Source: Hydra vulgaris (Eukaryota; Cnidaria; Hydrozoa; Anthoathecata; Hydridae). Taken from it: a stretch of 64,000 nucleotides of DNA. The notes under the pieces were generated by a model, which saw only the letters and a program-made list of their open reading frames with translations, ran no database searches and was not told the DNA's origin. Location of the stretch: NCBI RefSeq assembly GCF_038396675.1, contig NC_088931.1, positions 60,642,501-60,706,500 on the forward strand, read 5' to 3'. Of the stretch, positions 1,276-63,930 are shown piece by piece; the stretch's first letter is position 1; every line of letters begins with the position of its first letter. Both the position numbers and the translations under genes were made by a program.

Positions 1276-3611
1276 ATGATAGTGATCAACACATCAATGC
1301 TTTCATCTGGGATACAGTTATTGTCAGAGACGGATTTACGGGGGGTCATACCAAAATATGCAAGAGCAAAATATGAAAACGAACTACGGGATGGGATCAA
1401 TTGTAAATGGTTAGGTGAATATGAAGAAAATAAGATGGGACTACCTAAAGGGCAAATTCCCGTAATGGCTTTTATCCAATCAAATAAAGATAATAAAGTC
1501 AGACCCGTTTTGAACTGGAAAGAAGCTAACAATTTTATCGAGACTTATACTAATAAGAGATGCAGGAGTGCATGTTGAGAAGCTGAGGGAATGGAGAATA
1601 CTGTGAAACAAACCAGCCATTATTGATTTACGCAAGGTTTATCTCCAGGTTAAACTGAGGAATCTCTTTTGCAATTCCAAACAGTGGTTTTTTGAAACAT
1701 AAGATATTGTTTGACACGGCTTGGTTTTGGATTTAAATGTTGCTCCAATGATCATGAAAGCTGTTGTGAGTTGCCATTATTAATCAAGACCAATTGTTGA
1801 AGAGGGTAGCATCCGCTTATGTGAACAACATTTTTGTCAAAGAGGAAGTAGTAAGTTTTAATTATATGAAAAGATATTTCGAAAAATATGGTTTGGAAAG
1901 TAAGGAAGGTGAACAGGTTGGATGTAATGGGGTTCGTATATTGGGATTACACGTGTACAAGGTTGGTGGCAAGTTGATGCGGTCTAGAGAGAATCGAGTT
2001 GATGCGATTCCGACAAAATTAAACAGAAGAATTGTGTTTTCCGTTTGTGGGCAGTTGCTAGGTCACTTGCTAGTCTGTGGTTGGTTACGTGTAGTTTGCC
2101 GCCTTTTGAAAAGAAGAGTGGTTAGTTTGACGAAGGGTTGGGACGATGAAATTTGCAATGAAAATATAACGTGTGTACTTCAAGAAGTTTAAGATGAGGT
2201 ATAAACGTGCAATCCAGCATATGGTTATTGGGTTGTACATGGTGACGAGGGTGATGTGTGGGTTGACGTTAGTTCTTTGGCAATTAGTGCTCTTATTCAA
2301 GTTGGTAAAATTACTGTAAATGGTGCAACATGGATATGATAAGAAATGTCTGATGATCACATAAACATGGCGGAGCTGGATGCTGTAATGTGAGGAATGA
2401 ATATGGCTTTGACATGGAAACTAAAAAAAATGACTATTTTCACAGATTCTATGAGAGTGTTTCACTAGGTCTCTGACGCTCTCACTAGTAAGTCAATATT
2501 GAAATCATAAGCAATGGGCGAAATGTCGATTTAAAGAAGACTAAGCGTTCTGTAACAATTTATTGAAGAATATGGTCTTAATATTATTGTAAAACTTGTT
2601 CCTTCAAAAGATAACTTAGCTGACGCATTGAGAAGAGTTTGAAGTAGATGGTAAATATATTGACAGAGGCTGAGCATTCGAGTAATTTGTTGGAGTATTT
2701 CTGAATGAATTCTGTTGAAGGGAAACTTGAGCGCTGACGAAAATTAGGAAAGAGTGGCCATGGATATCACGCTCAGAAAATTTCTAACTCCAATTGATTG
2801 CGGACCTTCAAGATAGACACTGTGGCGACAACTTTGGAGTTCATACAGAAGTATTGTCATCACTCGAATACTGCAATTTATCTTTTGTGAGCAAAGAGCG
2901 CTATCTGAAATTTATACAGACAACAAAGCAATTTTTAAAACTGATGAGTCGAGAAGTTTTCTTGATGGTTGGGGAGTGCGCATTAGGTTTCGAACTGATT
3001 ATTATTCCGAAGGAAATGGAATTGTGGAAAGAAACCATCGTACAATTAAGAGAATTGCAGAAAAGTCAAAAATGTCAATACCGGAAGCATGATTAATACA
3101 ATGTCTCAGCCGACAAAAACAATGCAAGCTCGATGGAGAAAATATACAGATAATGAATTGACGTGAAAGGACTGAGAAAAGATAATCTTCCAGCAAAAGC
3201 TGACATAAACGAAATGTTTAATAATGATGATAACGTATGGTTGAAACCACTAAATGTAAAGTGCCATATTAAGTGGCAGCCAGCAAAACTAACTAGAAAT
3301 ATTTCAAAACAAAGTTGTAGAAGTTAATGGCGTTCCACGTCACGTAAAACATATCCGATATTAAAACTCGAACATGCGATATTCCTAAAGTCGAAGAAGA
3401 AATGAATCCAGACTGTGGTCGTGATTACGCGGAAAACCATGTAGAGCAAATTAAAAGTGTGTTGAGGACGTCAAGGAGACGTGTTACCATAAAACGGTGA
3501 AACCAAAAATGGACTCCAAGAAACAGAAGTGCTGTTGCCACGAAGTACTCGAGAACGACGCATACTCAAAAATACGACAATTATTGTTTGCATGATCCTT
3601 AATGACCAAGG
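1276..3611 (+). pseudogene. Degraded LTR-retrotransposon pol (RT, RNase H, integrase)
   Basis: Pieces of a Pol polyprotein run along the + strand, broken by many stops and frameshifts. The RT start is seen at 1276-1578 (KVRPVLNWKEAN, a KVRPVLDxRE-type motif). RT continues at 1580-2190 with LRKVYLQVKLR, GLDLNVAPMI, SAYVNNIFV (at the YxDD site, with both D replaced by N) and RILGLHV. RNase H-like pieces follow at 2240-2640 (NMAELDAVM, IFTDSMRVF, KDNLADAL). Integrase pieces are at 2750-3200 (LIDCGPSR, YTDN, ERNHRTIKRIA), giving a D...D...E arrangement. A chromo/tail-like segment lies at 3235-3350 (VNGVPRHVKHIRY). The RT-RNaseH-integrase order fits Ty3/gypsy or BEL/Pao; I cannot decide which. The copy is inactive: the RT catalytic DD is lost and stops are frequent. 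Confidence 0.85.
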
Positions 3612-3640
3612 AGGAGTGTAAATTTGATGCAGAAGTTCAA
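3607..3640 (+). other. Candidate polypurine tract and start of a 3' LTR
   Basis: Just after the end of the pol relic (last residues ...CLHDP then stop) comes CAAGGAGGAG followed by TGTAAATTTG. A purine run directly followed by TG is the usual PPT/LTR boundary. No matching 5' LTR was found upstream of pol in the window, so the LTR length is unknown. Confidence 0.35.
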
Positions 3641-5158
3641 GAACATTTTATGGCAACTTCGTGGTTTCTTTTTAATAATAATTCTTAATTAATTTAATAT
3701 AGAATTATGTATAAAGTGGTTTTTGTTATGTTGATTTTTGTGGGTAACTATTTGATACAAATTGATGTAAAACTTTTGTTTATTGTTAAATTACAATTTG
3801 CAATTTTCTCTCTCAAAACAAAACTTCTTTTCTTTTCAAAAAAATTTTATAAACCTGAATTCAACTCATCTTTATTATCAATTGATTTGTGATTAATTTT
3901 TATAACTTTAGGAAAGCTTGGTTTGTTAATTTTTGGTTTACCAATTATTTCATTCAATAATTACAATGTTTTTCTGAAATCTGTGTTTGACACTTTTTAA
4001 GAAATTTATTATAATAACTAGCTTTAGCTTAATCTTGTCATAAACTAGTTGATTAGACTACTTTTCGAACTTAACTGGTACTAACATTATATATTAACTG
4101 GTACGAAAATATTTTGAATTTGGTTATAGAACCTCAGACTTGATAGATTTATAAAAAGCTGGCAAAAAGCGCTGTTGGTGAATCTAAAATAAAAATTCTT
4201 CTTGCTGTGAACTTCTAACAGCTATTTTTAAAGTTTAGATACTGGCTTCTTTAAAAGTAAAAGAAAACAACAAGGACAAAATTTGGCGAAACTTTCACTG
4301 AAAAAGTTGCCTTAACTTGGAGAAGAGAAACGATTTCAAAAGTTAAAACAAAAATACTTGTTTTGAGAAAAACAAAATAAAAGTAAAAAAAAGTTGCTTT
4401 GAAAAAAAGACGAATTAAAAGAAAGCAATGCGAAAAGATGCAACATTTTATAACAGCATCGTACTGATAAAAATAATTATTGGAATTGCGGTCGGCATTC
4501 TAAGAACTATTTTTATCATTATAATGCTTTAATTATTTATTTATGATCACTTTAAATATTTAAAGTGATTTTACTGCCAAAAGCATTTGCGGGGCAAAAA
4601 GACAACGAAAAGTATAGTAAATTATATTTTTAAAGATACAAAAATGTCAAAGGCATAGATAATTCATAGATAGTTGAAGTGCGTAACAAAAAAAAACATA
4701 CTTTGTATTATTCTATGATTGCATGTGTTTGCAAATACGCCCATTATTCATCGATTGATATTAGAAAAATCTTGTTAAATTGTATGATTAAAAAAATGTT
4801 CGCGTTTTTTACGCACAATAATTTATGTTTGGATTAGCATGGGGCTTAATGAATATGATATATTTTTGTATCAGGCTTTGCAAATTATTATAGTTTTTTA
4901 AAAAAATGCTTGAAACAATAAGCAGACGCATACAGTGTAATAAAAAGTTTTATTTAAATTAGCCCTGGTCAACCCTACACTTTTTCTTGAAAACGTGTTA
5001 TTTGCCATTTTAGATGATACAAAACAATGTTTACTTATTTCCTTGGCTGAAACAGCCATCTAAACAAATATTTTTTGCTCAATTGAAGAATGCACCATAT
5101 ATTTTACATTTTCTTGACAAATTTTATTATTATCTGTGTATGGATTTCAAAATTAAAG
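3641..5158. other. AT-rich region, no gene seen
   Basis: Low-complexity AT-rich DNA. The ORF at 3707-3892 is hydrophobic and compositionally biased with no recognisable domain, and I do not call it a gene. The first part may belong to the LTR of the preceding retrotransposon. Confidence 0.5.
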
Positions 5159-14468: not shown

Positions 14469-14661
14469 ATTGATGTTGGAACATCAAACACATTGACGTT
14501 GAAACGTTAAATGAAATTGACGTTAAAGCGTTAAATGACATTGACGGTGAAACGTTAAATGACATCAACGTTAAATTTTTAAGTGACATTAAAGTCAAAA
14601 CGTTTAACGACATTGACGTTACGACGTTAAATGAGATTGACGTTAAAACGCTGAATCGACA
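14469..14661. repeat. 24-bp degenerate minisatellite, 8 copies
   Basis: Eight units of the 24-bp type TTGACGTTAAAACGTTAAAT+GACA follow one another. Because 24 is a multiple of three, both strands carry an 8-residue repeat (IDVKTLND on +; the minus-strand frame at 14452-14682). A stop lies just before the array on +, and no domain is recognised, so I call it a repeat, not a gene. Confidence 0.9.
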
Positions 14662-41939: not shown

Positions 41940-42082
41940 CCAGCCAACATTGACAGGCGGATACCGTATGGTTTTTGTCTGAGCTTACGGGAACGGGATT
42001 TTGACGGGTAAGTGTTTTGGTTTCCGGACGGGCCCCATATGGTAAAAAAATCAAGCGAATTTGCTTGATTGGGTTTTATCTG
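41940..42082 (+). repeat. GC-rich palindromic repeat, left half interrupted by a transposon
   Basis: Contains GACGGGTAAG, GGTTTCCGGACGGGCCCCAT and ATATGGT, similar in wording to the GC-rich repeat at 53185-53410 (CCCATATGGGCCCC, TTTCCGATAGGTTTCCC). The continuing piece appears to be 45750-45830 (GACGAGTTTCCCACAAGGTT-CCC), on the other side of the long-TIR element. Confidence 0.5.
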
Positions 42083-43071
42083 GCACTGCTTGATTCTAAG
42101 GGTTTTAGGTTGAATTTCAAAAGATATGAGGTTTTTCTTTAGATTCTATTAATATGTAAATGAACAAGCGGAAATGTGTTAAAATAAAATCGAAAGTGTT
42201 CCTTCTTATAGGTACGTGTGCAAAATTTTTAAACTATTCAAATATTTAATTATTATACATCATTGTAAAGAGCTTTAAATCAATATCACAATGGTGAAAA
42301 TTTCTTAAAAAACGAATGATTCTACTAAAAGTTATGCCCATTTAAGTGTCAAAAATTCATTATAAGGAATGCTTAAGAAAACTGCAACCAACTTAAAAAA
42401 TTAGCGTTCGGCTTACGGTAGTTTTATAATAGAACTTCATTGCTTAGTTTTCAGGGCATTACTTTGCCTCGGTTATATTTTTATTCAACTTATAACAAAA
42501 AAAAAATAATTTTTATTAACGAATTAAAAAAAATTATAAATAACAATAAGATAAATCAATTTCTATATGATTAAAAATTTTATTCATAAATTTATTTATT
42601 TTATAACTTTTTTTTAAAGATAATACTTATTATATAATACTTTACATATATAGGCTTATGTATTAAAACGCGTAGTCCATTTGTTGCGTTATTATAAATG
42701 TACATAGCCTTCTAGAAGGTAAGTATTGAATAACTGCATAGTCTTATAAGGATATCCTGCATCTTGGTACAGATAGTAATCTGAACTAAAGGAGGAAAAA
42801 GTTCCTAAGTCACCTGATGAGCTTATTGTGCCAGTACAGTAACAACAACCATGTTTTCCACCATGACTCTATAATAAATTATTTTATTATTCTGAGATTT
42901 AATGTTTTAATAGCTACTTGTAAAAATTAATAAAATTAAGCAAAATCTCTTACTGATATGCTAAGAAGTCCGTTTATGAGCTTTAGGTCACAATCCACAA
43001 AAAATTTGAGCTGATTTAAATTAATTAATTTAGTAAGCATTCCAAGATTATGGTTATTTTCCTTGACGTTA

Positions 43072-44003
43072 CCGTCAACCGGGGTGACTTCGGACAGCGG
43101 GGTGTCTTCGGACAGAGCATTAATTATTATTCTGCTTCAGTTTCTCTTAGCGATGGCGCGAAGCTACAAACGTAAACTAAACTTTAAAGTGTTGTGTGGA
43201 ACAAGCTCTAAAGAAGATATAAAAAAAGCTATAGAAGATCACAGTAAAGGCATGAGTATTCGAAAAGCTGCTGGTAAGCATAAAGTCAAAAAATCAACAT
43301 TGCATGATCACATTAGAAAACCCACCTTAAAGAAGGTTGGAGGCCAGAAAATTATAAACAAAGCAGATGAGGTACTCATTGCTCAAATGCTAGAAGCTGT
43401 TGCTGATTAGGGTTTTCCTATCGAAAGATTAGAAGTCAAAATGATGGCTTTTGATCTCCTCAAAAATCATCGTGGGTAAAACAGTAGCAATTTGCAGATA
43501 CCTGGAAATGACTGGTTAAATTCATTTATGAAACAAAACAATATTTCTGGCAGAAATGCTTCTAACATTAAACGATCGAGATTAAAGTTAGGTGTAGAAA
43601 TAATGAATAATCATTGTAGTTTTATCATTAATTATATGTGTATTTGAAATAGTTTACCAGTAGTTTTTTTTTTTTGTTTTTTTGTTATTTGAAATAAAAA
43701 AATTTTAATCAAGTAGCTTTTTTACATAGTTATACATTCATTTTAAAATCCTTGATGTTGAAATTTCAACTTTAAAAATCACTTCAAGTGTCCGGAGTCA
43801 CCCCATTTCCTGATTTTGATTTTTTGATTTTCAGACCGTTTATTTATGCTAATATCATATTGGGAAGCTGAAAGCCAAAATTTCTTTATATTCTTTATAA
43901 TTACAGTGGTACGATCCACAAAAATATTTCCATTTTGTATTAATTTTAATGAAACAGTTTAATAATTTTTTCGAAAATCGTCCGAAGTCACCCCGGTTGA
44001 CGG
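43072..44003 (+). mobile_element. 932-bp pogo-like element nested in another transposon
   Basis: Perfect 24-bp TIRs CCGTCAACCGGGGTGACTTC+GGAC lie at 43072-43095 and inverted at 43980-44003. They are flanked by TA at 43070-43071 and 44004-44005. The left TIR is followed by a near-copy (CGGGGTGTCTTCGGACAG, 43097-43114), and an inverted TGTCCGGAGTCACCCC lies near 43789. These are probable transposase-binding sites. It carries the 5' part of a transposase gene only. It inserted in exon 5 of the minus-strand gene; removing it and one TA rejoins the frame (LALAR...VKENNHNLG). Confidence 0.93.
43153..43640 (+). pseudogene. Pogo/CENP-B-like transposase, N-terminal HTH domains only
   Basis: ATG at 43153 opens MARSYKRKLNFKVL. 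A psq-type HTH follows (AIEDHSKGMSIRKAAGKHKV, KKSTLHDHIRKP), then the linker (KADEVLIAQMLEAVADxGFP, with TAG where the family has Trp) and the second, CENP-B-type HTH (PGNDWLNSFMKQNNISGRNA then SNIKRSRLK). The same frame runs through with two stops (43408-43410 and one near 43477). The DDE domain is entirely missing: the element goes from the HTHs to its right TIR. Such a remnant could bind TIRs without cutting, but the stops argue against any product beyond the first 85 residues. Confidence 0.85.
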
Positions 44004-45749
44004 TACGTGCCAAAGCCAGAATTGTCACCTTGTTCACTCCTGAGTGTTTCTTGTTTCTATTTTGCTCCTCTAACTTTGTTTCATCAAAAATATTCATTAT
44101 AATCTGAAAATAAATCACAATTGAATAATTATTCTAATTTTATTTCTTTTATTTGAGTAATATAAAGTAGGTTAAGTTACTAAACCTTCAGTGAACCCTG
44201 TCCTCCGTCAATTCCAACTCTAACAATGGCTTTCATAGGATCTAATCCACATAGAGAACAGATTTTTTGAACAAGTCTGGTGAGATCTTCAATGTATACA
44301 ACATCTTTCAACATTGAGTTTTTAAGTTCATTTTCCTTTCCATATAAAAAAAAAAGCAATTTTTTTGTAACTATAAAACTTGTCTAGAGCATGAGACCGT
44401 AGCAATTGAATTCTTTTCAACACCTTATTGTGAAATACTTTATTGTAAACAGTGTGATATATTAAATATTATATATTTTTTGAAAAAAAAAATTAATGTA
44501 CTGCTGCTTAAATTATGTTATAAAATATTTAGACACCTAAATGACCAAGATCTTTTCATAAATCTCTAAGAATATCACGAACAACATTTTTAAGCAGATC
44601 ATGATTTTTCTTGATATCAAATATTGTATCAGTAGAGACTACTATTTTTTTGGAACTTTGGTTTTAGTACTACAGGCAGGGGTTAATATAAAAAATTAGA
44701 ATAAAATATTGCAGAAAGTCATAAGTAAATAAGAAAATAAATAAAAATCTACCAGTGGATAGTTGTAAGGAATTTTCATTCTTAACTAGAAACTTTAAAA
44801 TATTTGAGGTTATTTGCTGTGACATGTTTTCATCCTTGGAAAGAATAAGATTCTTAGCATTTTGAACAGCTGATGTTCTCGTGCATGGGTGCCTAATGCC
44901 TTTTCCAACTAGTTGAAAACGATCTGTGCAGAATGAGTTTAATCAGTGCAGAGATTTTCATTTGACTCAATGATACAATCTCTTAAGTTAAAAATCTTGT
45001 GGCTGCGCTTGTTTGATACCATACAACAAATTGGACATAAGCATTGATCCTCAGTTGAAGCAATCCTTTCTACCTTTATAAGTCACTCTCTTCCACTTTT
45101 CCAAACCTCTTCTATCATTTTTACAGGCTTTCCTTGCTGTGAACAAGATTGTTTGTATTTTTAGTGAAATATTTTAGAAAAAATTTAATATATATAAAAA
45201 AATATTTATAAAATATAATAACCTTTTTGGCATAGAGAGCATTTTTGCAATGGCAACAAAGTCCAGTGGAAAATGCATTTATATAAAAACTGATACCTTT
45301 GTGTACATTGTTATTTAAAATAAATGTTTGTTAATTAAAAATGTTATAAAAAGTAGTTAAAACTTTTACAAAATAAAATTAAAAAAGTTGTAAAGTTTTT
45401 TACAATATTTCTAAACAAGTCATCAACCGCTTTAAGAGCTATATTAGTGAATTTATTTAAGGTATTATTATATATTAAGTTAACCACATTTTGAAGACAA
45501 AAAAAATAAAATGTCACGTGGCTTTCTATGATTTTTGCAATAAAAGTAAGCTTAAATAATAAAATTAATATTGTTTTTTAAACGCTAATTTCTGGATTTC
45601 AAAAAATACCAATTTTGGGCTAAGAAGGAACGCTTTCGATTTTATTTTAAACACATTCCAGCTCGCACATATACATATTAATAGAATCTGAAGAAAAATC
45701 TCATGTCTTTTGAAATTCAACCTAAAACCCCTAGAATCATGCAGTGCTG

Positions 45750-45830
45750 GTTTTTATCAGTGCCAAAGGATCTGGGGAATTGACGAGTTTCCCACAAGGT
45801 TCCCAAAAGGTTTAACCTGATAATTAAAAA
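45750..45830 (+). repeat. GC-rich palindromic repeat, right half
   Basis: GACGAGTTTCCCACAAGGTT then CCCAAAAGG resembles the TTTCCC/GGTTTCCC wording of the repeats at 41940-42082 and 53185-53410. It is interpreted as the other half of the copy split by the long-TIR element. Confidence 0.4.
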
Positions 45831-49677: not shown

Positions 49678-50139
49678 GGAGTGTTGCTACATCGATTATC
49701 TTATAGCCTGACTCAGAATGGAGTGCTGCTACATCGACTGACAAATAGCCTGACCCGCAAGGGAGTGCTGCTATATCGACTGACAAATAGCCTGACTCGC
49801 AATGGAGTGCTGCTACATTGACTGACAAATAGCCTGACCCGCAAGGGAGTGCTGCTACATCGACTGAGGGTTTGGTTGGGGCAGGCAGTCAATTAATTAA
49901 AAAAAAAATTCCGGTCTTGCATTTTAATTTTTACTTTTTGTCAACTAAATATGGAAAAAACTTTCAGACAACATATAAGAGTTCTATATCTATAGATCCA
50001 GGTTTGAAACAAGCTTTGGACATATTTTCGCGTCACAGTAAGGAAGGAGGCGTGAACTTCCTGGTTAAATGCACTTCGGCGGTGCTCTGTGACAAAACCA
50101 TTAGGACTTCTTGGGACACCTAAAAATATATATATATAT
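49678..50139 (+). mobile_element. SINE-like Hydra-type repeat: 42-bp tandem head plus conserved tail
   Basis: The head is 4.5 copies of a 42-bp unit starting GGAGTGCTGCTACATCGACT (49678, 49720, 49762, 49804, 49846). The body (49868-50125) runs GCAGGCAGTCAATTAATTA, GATCCAGGTTTGAAACAAGC, GGAGGCGTGAACTTCCTGGT, CTCTGTGACAAAACCATTAG to TTCTTGGGACACC. A short TA tail (50128-50139) ends it. I recall this body as a common ending in Hydra gene models, where it creates spurious C-termini. The 83-codon ORF at 49872-50123 is therefore not called a gene. Confidence 0.65.
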
Positions 50140-53449: not shown

Positions 53450-54290
53450 TTAGATACCTTTGGTTGAAAGATTTTTCTTGGCTGAGGTATTCTAAAAGTA
53501 CTGATGGGGCATTTTGTTTATCTTGTGTATTATTTGCCAATAAATTCAAATTAAGATCACGTAAGTTAACAGATTTGTATTTAAACCCTTTCAATAAATG
53601 GTGTGATGCTATTTGATCATTTTCAAAGCATGAGTCAACAAAAAATAGTTTACATGCATTTACTATGCTTGTCTTTAATATTTTTTTGAGTCATTCCTCA
53701 GGTATAAGTCAACAATAAATGTCATCATTGATGCTAAACGTCAAAGAAAAAATCATAAAAAATCGCAAATACTTCGTCCTGTTGCTGACGCTATAATTTT
53801 TTGCGGTCAAACCAATACACCTTTGAGAGGCCTCAGAGATGATGATACACCTTTGAGAGGCCTCAAAGATGATGATACACCTTTGAGAGGCCTCAGAGAT
53901 GATGATACACCATTGAGAGGCCTCAGAGATGATGATACACCTTTGAGAGGCCTTAGAGATGATGATACACCTTTGAGAGGCCTCGGAGATGATGATACAC
54001 CTTTGAGAGGCCTCAGAGATGATGATACACCTTTGAGAGGCCTCGGAGATGATGATACACCTTTTAGAGGCCTCAGAGATGATTCCCAATATCTTCTAGA
54101 GGCTGGAGAGCATTCGAAATGTGGAACTGGTTGTTTTAATAAACTTTAAATTTTGCTGTGCGCAATGGAAATGATGTTTTGGGCTCTCATCTTAATAGTT
54201 GTTCAAAGAATGTCTCCAACATTTCGAAGACTTTACAAAATGCAATTATTAAATGCTTTGTAAACTTGTTAACAAAAAAGCATGTCATTA
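53450..54290 (+). pseudogene. hAT transposase relic, TTF zinc finger / ZMYM type, with repeat expansion
   Basis: The + strand reads WLKDFSWLRYSKSTDGAFCL then SCVLFANKFKL, the TTF-type zinc finger found before hAT transposases of the ZMYM/DUF4371 type (WxxxFPWLxYSxxxDGAFCxxC). Then come PFNKWCDAI, FSKHEST and, after shifts, KNRKYF/ILRPVADAIIFCGQTNTPLR (family: IxxTIIFCGRxxxPLRGHRDD). Next is the segment LRGLRDDDTP repeated nine times (see 53821), then SQYLLEAGEHSKCGTGCFN and LLNFAVRNGNDVLGSHLNSC and NVSNISKTLQNAII. Stops and frameshifts lie between blocks. The catalytic core beyond is absent. The array keeps the frame, so the repeat region itself is open for 109 codons. Confidence 0.75.
53821..54083 (+). 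repeat. In-frame 30-bp tandem expansion, 9 copies
   Basis: Nine head-to-tail 30-bp units (CTTTGAGAGGCCTCAGAGAT+GATGATACAC) differ by at most two bases. Each codes PLRGLRDDDT, a segment that relatives have once (PLRGHRDD). Near identity shows recent expansion after or around the time the gene decayed. The reverse strand is open too (IISEASQRCI repeats at 53709-54089), which is an artefact. Confidence 0.97.
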
Positions 54291-58140: not shown

Positions 58141-58200
58141 TCTAGTGTTGTGACCAAAACTAAAAATCGTAACTAACTAAACTAAAAAAAACGTAACTAA

Positions 58201-58411
58201 AACTAGTCGACTAACTTTATAGTTAATTAAAATTAGTCGACTAATTTTTTAGTTAACTAAAATTAGTCGACTAACTTTTTAGTTAATTAAAATTAGTCGA
58301 CTAACTTTTTAGTCAACTAAAATTAGTCGACTAACTTTTTAGTCTAACTAAAAATAGTTGACTAACTTTTTAGTTAGTTCAAATAAGTCGACTAAATTTT
58401 TAGTCTCAATA
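58201..58411. repeat. 30-bp minisatellite centred on TTAGTCGACTAA, 7 copies
   Basis: Seven units AATTAGTCGACTAACTTTTT+AGTTAACTAA. Each contains the palindrome TTAGTCGACTAA and a smaller TTAACTAA/TTAGTTAA pair, so the array is self-complementary at several registers. It begins right after AGTGTTGTGACCAAAACTAA (58144-), a hAT-like terminus, suggesting a satellite inside a MITE. Confidence 0.93.
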
Positions 58412-63324: not shown

Positions 63325-63930
63325 ATGTGCGATTACACAGGTCAACAAGGTTTTCTGGTGCTGAGCAAACAATTTTTTTTTTGGATTGCATTTCACATTT
63401 TGATTTCAAATATGCAACTCATTTTTTACCATCACGTCAAGTTGTAAAGATATTTGGGTTCAGATCTTTAATATTTGGGGTAAAGTCAACCTGGTCTCAA
63501 AAAAAGCGTATTTTCATAGAGATTTTAGAAAACATAAAAAATTTTTGACAAAACAATTATTTGAAAAAATGCTAAAGACTCTTAAAAAAATGTTAACAAA
63601 ATGTTTTTCAGCAATAATACAAAAAATACTTGTTTTTATTACAAACAAATAACATCTTTAAAATCTCTATGAAAGTACGCTTCTTTTGAGACCCAGGTTG
63701 ACATACTTTTGAACAACTTTTTTTCCGACAATATTAGGGACTTTACCCCAAATTCTAAAGATTTGAACCCAAATATCTTTACAACTTGACGTGATGGTAA
63801 AAAATAAATTGCATATTTGAAATCAAAATAAGAAATTCTACATAAAAAAGAAATTGTTTTCTTGGCACCAGATAAAAATTCTGTTTTTGTTGACCTGTGT
63901 TATTATTGCACACTACCTATAGAACGCGGC
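63325..63930. repeat. Large imperfect inverted repeat, arms of about 210 and 270 bp
   Basis: The left arm (63325-63535) and right arm (63655-63930, inverted) share long blocks: CACAGGTCAACAA, TTGATTTCAAATATGCAA, TTTTTTACCATCACGTCAAG, TTGTAAAGATATTTGGGTTC, TTTGGGGTAAAGTC and TTTTCATAGAGATTTTA. The right arm has an extra piece of about 38 bp (near 63704-63742) just beyond GGGGTAAAGTC, absent on the left. The centre is about 120 bp. The ORF at 63249-63548 lies in the left arm and is not a gene by its content. Two inverted copies of one repeat or a foldback element would both fit. Confidence 0.88.

Follow-up and report, generated by a model that had tools for sequence, protein, structure and literature searches.

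The window, a 64,000-nt stretch of the Hydra vulgaris genome, contains a DNA transposon with long terminal inverted repeats (TIRs) that encloses the remains of a multi-exon gene and is itself interrupted by a second, nested element (Table 1). The limits of the outer element were set by the termini of its family. Its inverted arms run over 107 nt (42083-42189 and 45641-45747, 87%) and over a further 30 nt (42179-42208 and 45621-45650, 97%), which together give inverted ends of ~126 bp, close to the ~130 bp of the original prediction, and an exact 4-bp duplication borders them. In other copies, the end-to-end similarity reaches up to ~290 bp (77.9-85.7%). The three motifs by which the gene had been singled out, GIDGGQGSLK, DLKL and HGGKHGCCYC, all lie in open frames on the minus strand. 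Elsewhere in the window are a MITE-like 137-nt inverted repeat with 88% complementary arms and 251 nt between them (63351-63875), 30-bp tandem arrays (53755-54144 and 58185-58405), 42-bp repeats (49678-49887) and 24-bp repeats (14490-14657).

Table 1. Features of the transposon copy and its nested element, in window positions.
Feature	Position	Strand	Basis or remark
Whole transposon copy	42084..45746	- (gene strand)	5'-CACTG...CAGTG-3' termini common to family; 20 other copies listed
Target-site duplication CTGG, left	42080..42083	.	
TIR, gene-3' side	42084..42208	.	90% match to opposite arm
Filler where the exon 6 end, intron 6 and exon 7 should lie, with loss of the putative catalytic E	42209..42723	.	
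Exon 6, first part (HGGKHGCCYC = C(2)C motif)	42724..42868	-	
Exon 5 (putative second catalytic D; DLKL), split by nested element	42954..44103	-	
Nested non-autonomous element, 932 bp, inside exon 5	43072..44003	+	Perfect inverted ends, Psq-type HTH fragment
Exon 4, ending GIDGGQGSLK (putative first catalytic D); upper limit approximate	44186..44442	-	
Exon 3, upper limit approximate	44535..44679	-	Gene model fitted manually
Exon 2, coding for the N-terminal region rich in Cys and His; interrupted by in-frame stops	44753..45136	-	Open frames; gene model fitted by hand
Partial exon 1, lacking the region of the start codon; approximate upper limit	45223..45303	-	Consensus gene model fitted manually
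TIR, gene-5' side	45621..45746	.	
Target-site duplication CTGG, right	45747..45750	.	

The window copy is an ordinary fossil, unable to make a working enzyme, since the start, the last exon and the putative catalytic glutamate are gone, stops interrupt the frame and the nested element splits exon 5. Consensus positions 439-593 are missing, the acceptor AG of exon 4 is mutated, and the open frame of exon 6 continues to 42692, where it is no longer homologous; for the replacing stretch of ~500 bp, the 20 other copies contained no counterpart at E 1e-5. Against the consensus, 10 in-frame stops and 10 frameshifts (9 deletions and 1 insertion) were counted over the 79% of the coding sequence that aligned, approximate figures, since the non-homologous filler was drawn into the alignment as well.

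The nested element was recognised as a second transposon because at least 20 other places in the genome matched positions 988-1924 of the query only (89-98% by DNA search). TA duplications flank it (43070-43071 and 44004-44005), and it is called non-autonomous because a Psq-type helix-turn-helix fragment (HTH_psq, E 4e-7) is its only coding remnant; as a Psq-HTH element with a TA duplication, it is called pogo-like. It is absent from 15 of the 20 other outer copies, where the matches flanking the insertion point are adjacent, and that point is deleted or uncovered in the remaining five (L016, L019, L021, L026 and L028).

When the genome (911.5 Mb, 15 contigs) was searched in full at the DNA level, parts of the outer element turned up in at least 20 other places. 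Both ends were present, together with the gene, in 11 of these 20 copies, and one end or part of one in the other nine, so TIRs and gene do co-occur at other loci. In the 3,582-bp consensus of the 20 copies and the window, the ends start 5'-CACTGCTTGATTCTAGGGGTTTTAGGTTGAATTTC and the termini read CACTG...CAGTG, with a changed base at some ends of L009, L010, L012 and L018. Eleven two-ended copies were scored for target-site duplications (10 fetched copies and the window; L027, in which 20 terminal bases at one end fail to align, was left out, as were eight one-ended copies and the partial copy L016). An exact 4-bp duplication was found in nine of them (TTCA, TATG, CAAT, TTGG, TTGG, AGTG, ATAC, GCAG and CTGG), a duplication of 2, 3 or 5-9 bp in none, and no matching duplication in L019 and L025. 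Transib elements duplicate 5 bp, CACTA elements 2 bp, and Kolobok and piggyBac elements TTAA, a sequence not found among the nine duplications read.

Two empty sites agree with this length. With the flanks of L015 joined over a single TTGG, the full 136 bases align without a change of length at 37 of the 40 places scored, and at the remaining three the match begins at base 4-5. For L010, with its flanks joined over one TATG, the match keeps the same length in the five best of 41 rows. Both insertions lie within repeats, and the empty sites are paralogous. Since nine of the 11 scored copies and both empty sites coincide, the duplication is 4 bp. The 11 two-ended copies diverge from the consensus by 3.4-5.7%, near equally across the three codon positions (4.8, 4.0 and 4.4%) and the introns (3.8%), as expected of neutral decay. 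No intact copy was present among the 21 examined, and the family has further copies listed beyond these; L018 has no stop and four frameshifts, and L015 has two stops and one frameshift.

The gene predicted from the consensus has seven exons with the frame open across all of them, GT...AG introns of 66-224 bp in phases 0,1,0,0,0,1, a weak donor at intron 3 (GTCTAA), and a 671-aa product. Against the six exons originally proposed, the family consensus has seven, and the window copy retains pieces of six. Among the relatives described below, L029, L047, L060 and L061 have no intron-sized insertion at the positions of introns 2-6, a break at intron 1 measures ~70 bp in L030 and 97 bp in L029, and breaks of 70 bp at intron 5 and 73 bp at intron 6 occur in L037 and L038, respectively. 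These introns were judged from tblastn blocks, with those of L035 and L059, far longer in DNA than in protein, distrusted; exon structure appears from them to differ among families through gain or loss. Exons inside a transposon had been regarded as unusual, a view that does not hold for such transposases, as CACTA transposases are reported to have one to eleven exons (PMC4158355). Because intron content varies between families here as it is described to vary in CACTA (PMC4158355), the multi-exon structure is no sign of novelty.

A protein search of the genome returned 199 matches, including relatives at 35-53% identity. Twelve residues are invariant in six aligned sequences: D335, D403, H416, C422, C425, H488, D527, H608, H613, E630, E634 and H637 (numbered by a 672-aa query, one residue longer than the 671-aa model). 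The consensus reads D-68-D-19-C(2)C-66-H-120-H(4)H-26-E. Across 13 rows, counted wherever the motif was found (it was in part missing in L029, L030, L034, L037 and L071), the D-D interval is 65-68, C(2)C to H is 66-70 and H to H(4)H is 120-130, the second D stands 19 residues from C(2)C in 11 of 11 readable rows, and H(4)H stands 26 from E in eight of 10, with 28 in L060 and 32 in L037. The corresponding intervals in three Hydra Transib sequences and HzTransib, in order along the protein, are 99-114, 16-17, 33-34, 134-135 and 26-27; the Hydra protein L064 was identified as a bona fide Transib from its similarity to PDB 6pqn (E 3e-96). The glutamate presumed to be catalytic was chosen with reference to the catalytic E of RAG1.

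In several related families (L047, L059, L060, L061, L062 and L072), long frames have stayed open at numerous loci; these families are probably young and possibly active. Among the 85 matches listed for the intronless L047, 51 are stop-free, some of them fragments. No Pfam match below E 0.05 was obtained for L047, L059, L060, L061 or L062. By eye, the sister L060 has CAC termini and a 4-bp TGTG duplication, read from one copy in low-complexity sequence, and the closer sister L038 has one end starting CACTG and the other altered, with CAC not kept. At the L047 locus, an open Tc1/mariner-type (DDE_3) gene at 3548-4345 adjoins the transposase relative, and tandem subterminal repeats at both ends bracket the two genes.

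Plain similarity searches did not place the protein: Pfam gave no match below E 0.05 and PDB no credible one. A TAL-effector match in PDB was rejected as a sum over repeats, in which no single stretch passed alone in any row. Phage, viral, bacterial and archaeal collections contained no relatives, a result that says little about animals. When profiles were compared by hhalign, 13 family sequences against four Transib sequences scored 32.7 (P 0.0044, probability 7.8%), a match that is weak but stands above all 200 column-shuffled controls (maximum 27.6) and above the reversed profile (15.3). The match strengthens with profile depth, from six relatives against one Transib (P 0.22, probability 0.3%) through 13 against three (P 0.029), each comparison aligning H(4)H and E with their Transib counterparts, and a GxGxxxDGN motif is aligned between the family and Transib. 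The family scored 17.3 against Hydra CACTA and 15.7 against Tc1; the CACTA control says little, because the known pair Transib-CACTA (15.4) also went undetected by the same method.

In our view the window element is, with a probability of about 0.78, the fossil of a Chapaev-like cut-and-paste DNA transposon belonging to the CMC group. Because the Transib profile match is weak and Pfam and PDB lack a credible match, this placement draws mainly on anatomy and motifs. Chapaev elements are described with 3-4-bp duplications and CAC/GTG termini, and the Chapaev3 subgroup with 3-bp TWA duplications (PMC4079192); the consensus ends CACTG...CAGTG and the exact 4-bp duplications, seen in copies and at both empty sites, agree with the former, and the varied 4-bp sequences do not agree with TWA. 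The CMC signature is a DDE triad in which C(2)C and H(3-4)H follow the second D and precede the E (PMC12730594), and as a residue pattern this is what the family has. The same source gives 3 bp as the CACTA/EnSpm duplication (PMC12730594), and 2-3-bp duplications occur in none of the 11 scored copies. The filing under Chapaev is made by published hallmarks (CAC termini, a 4-bp duplication and D-D-C(2)C-H-H(4)H-E). The original prediction of a multi-exon transposase gene belonging to the element itself is borne out by the repeated co-occurrence of TIRs and gene, the duplications and the empty sites. Its failure to place the protein in a known superfamily holds for plain Pfam and PDB searches, and not for termini, duplication and signature, which match CMC hallmarks. 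An undescribed superfamily is not supported, as the published CMC/CMCT and Chapaev hallmarks are present (PMC4079192, PMC12730594).

On the CMC reading, a transposase of 671 aa with a Cys/His-rich and possibly zinc-binding N-terminal region would have carried an RNase H-type DDE domain with an inserted C(2)C...H(4)H module, predicted to bind zinc. The enzyme would have bound the CACTG-starting inverted ends, excised the element through its putative catalytic acidic residues and joined it into cuts staggered by four bases, which gap repair would then have converted into 4-bp direct repeats.

It is unlikely, though worth weighing, that the family forms a lineage distinct from Chapaev. The lack of a Pfam match and of a credible PDB match would suit such a lineage, as would the weak similarity of the Transib profile and residue spacing that departs from Transib; no trait was found at odds with Chapaev, however, and termini and duplication length coincide with its published hallmarks (PMC4079192). 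We would likewise regard as rather doubtful a broader version, in which the element, together with its numerous relatives whose frames are open, makes up a separate, still expanding RAG1/Transib-type lineage between Chapaev and Transib, outside the Pfam models and with introns independently gained or lost. That the element is a Transib, of the group directly ancestral to RAG1, is very improbable: the motif order is identical and the H(4)H-26-E spacing is that of Hydra Transib, but the duplication is 4 bp, none of the 11 copies shares the 5 bp of Transib, and the bona fide Transib L064 resembles the family profile weakly. Equally remote is a host gene or fragment caught between the TIRs of a non-autonomous element mobilised from elsewhere, for instance by the Tc1-like gene that adjoins the L047 relative, as gene and TIRs occur together in copy after copy and the DDE-type residues are invariant. 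That Tc1-like gene was rejected as the true transposase; among the places listed, it coincides with L047 relatives, by eye, at L047 only.

With the CMC placement, a transposon group unseen by Pfam and plentiful in the Hydra genome joins the clade from which RAG1 arose. Intact, probably young transposases of the L047 type may be testable, given the share of stop-free matches among those listed.

Among known systems, CACTA/EnSpm elements resemble the family in their CACT-starting ends, multi-exon transposase and published CMC signature, and differ in a duplication of 2-3 rather than 4 bp and in ends that read CACTA rather than CACTG; the Hydra PF02992 elements gave no profile match to the family, by a test that is insensitive. 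Transib and RAG1 (L064; HzTransib, 6pqn) share the order D-D-C(2)C-H-H(4)H-E and, in most rows, H(4)H-26-E, whereas the Hydra family has a shorter D-D interval, a longer C(2)C-H interval and a 4-bp duplication. Chapaev3 is set apart by its 3-bp TWA duplications, against 4 bp of varied sequence in Hydra. Chapaev within CMC has in common with the family, by description, its CAC...GTG termini, a 4-bp duplication within the published 3-4 bp, and a DDE triad accompanied by the CMC residues.
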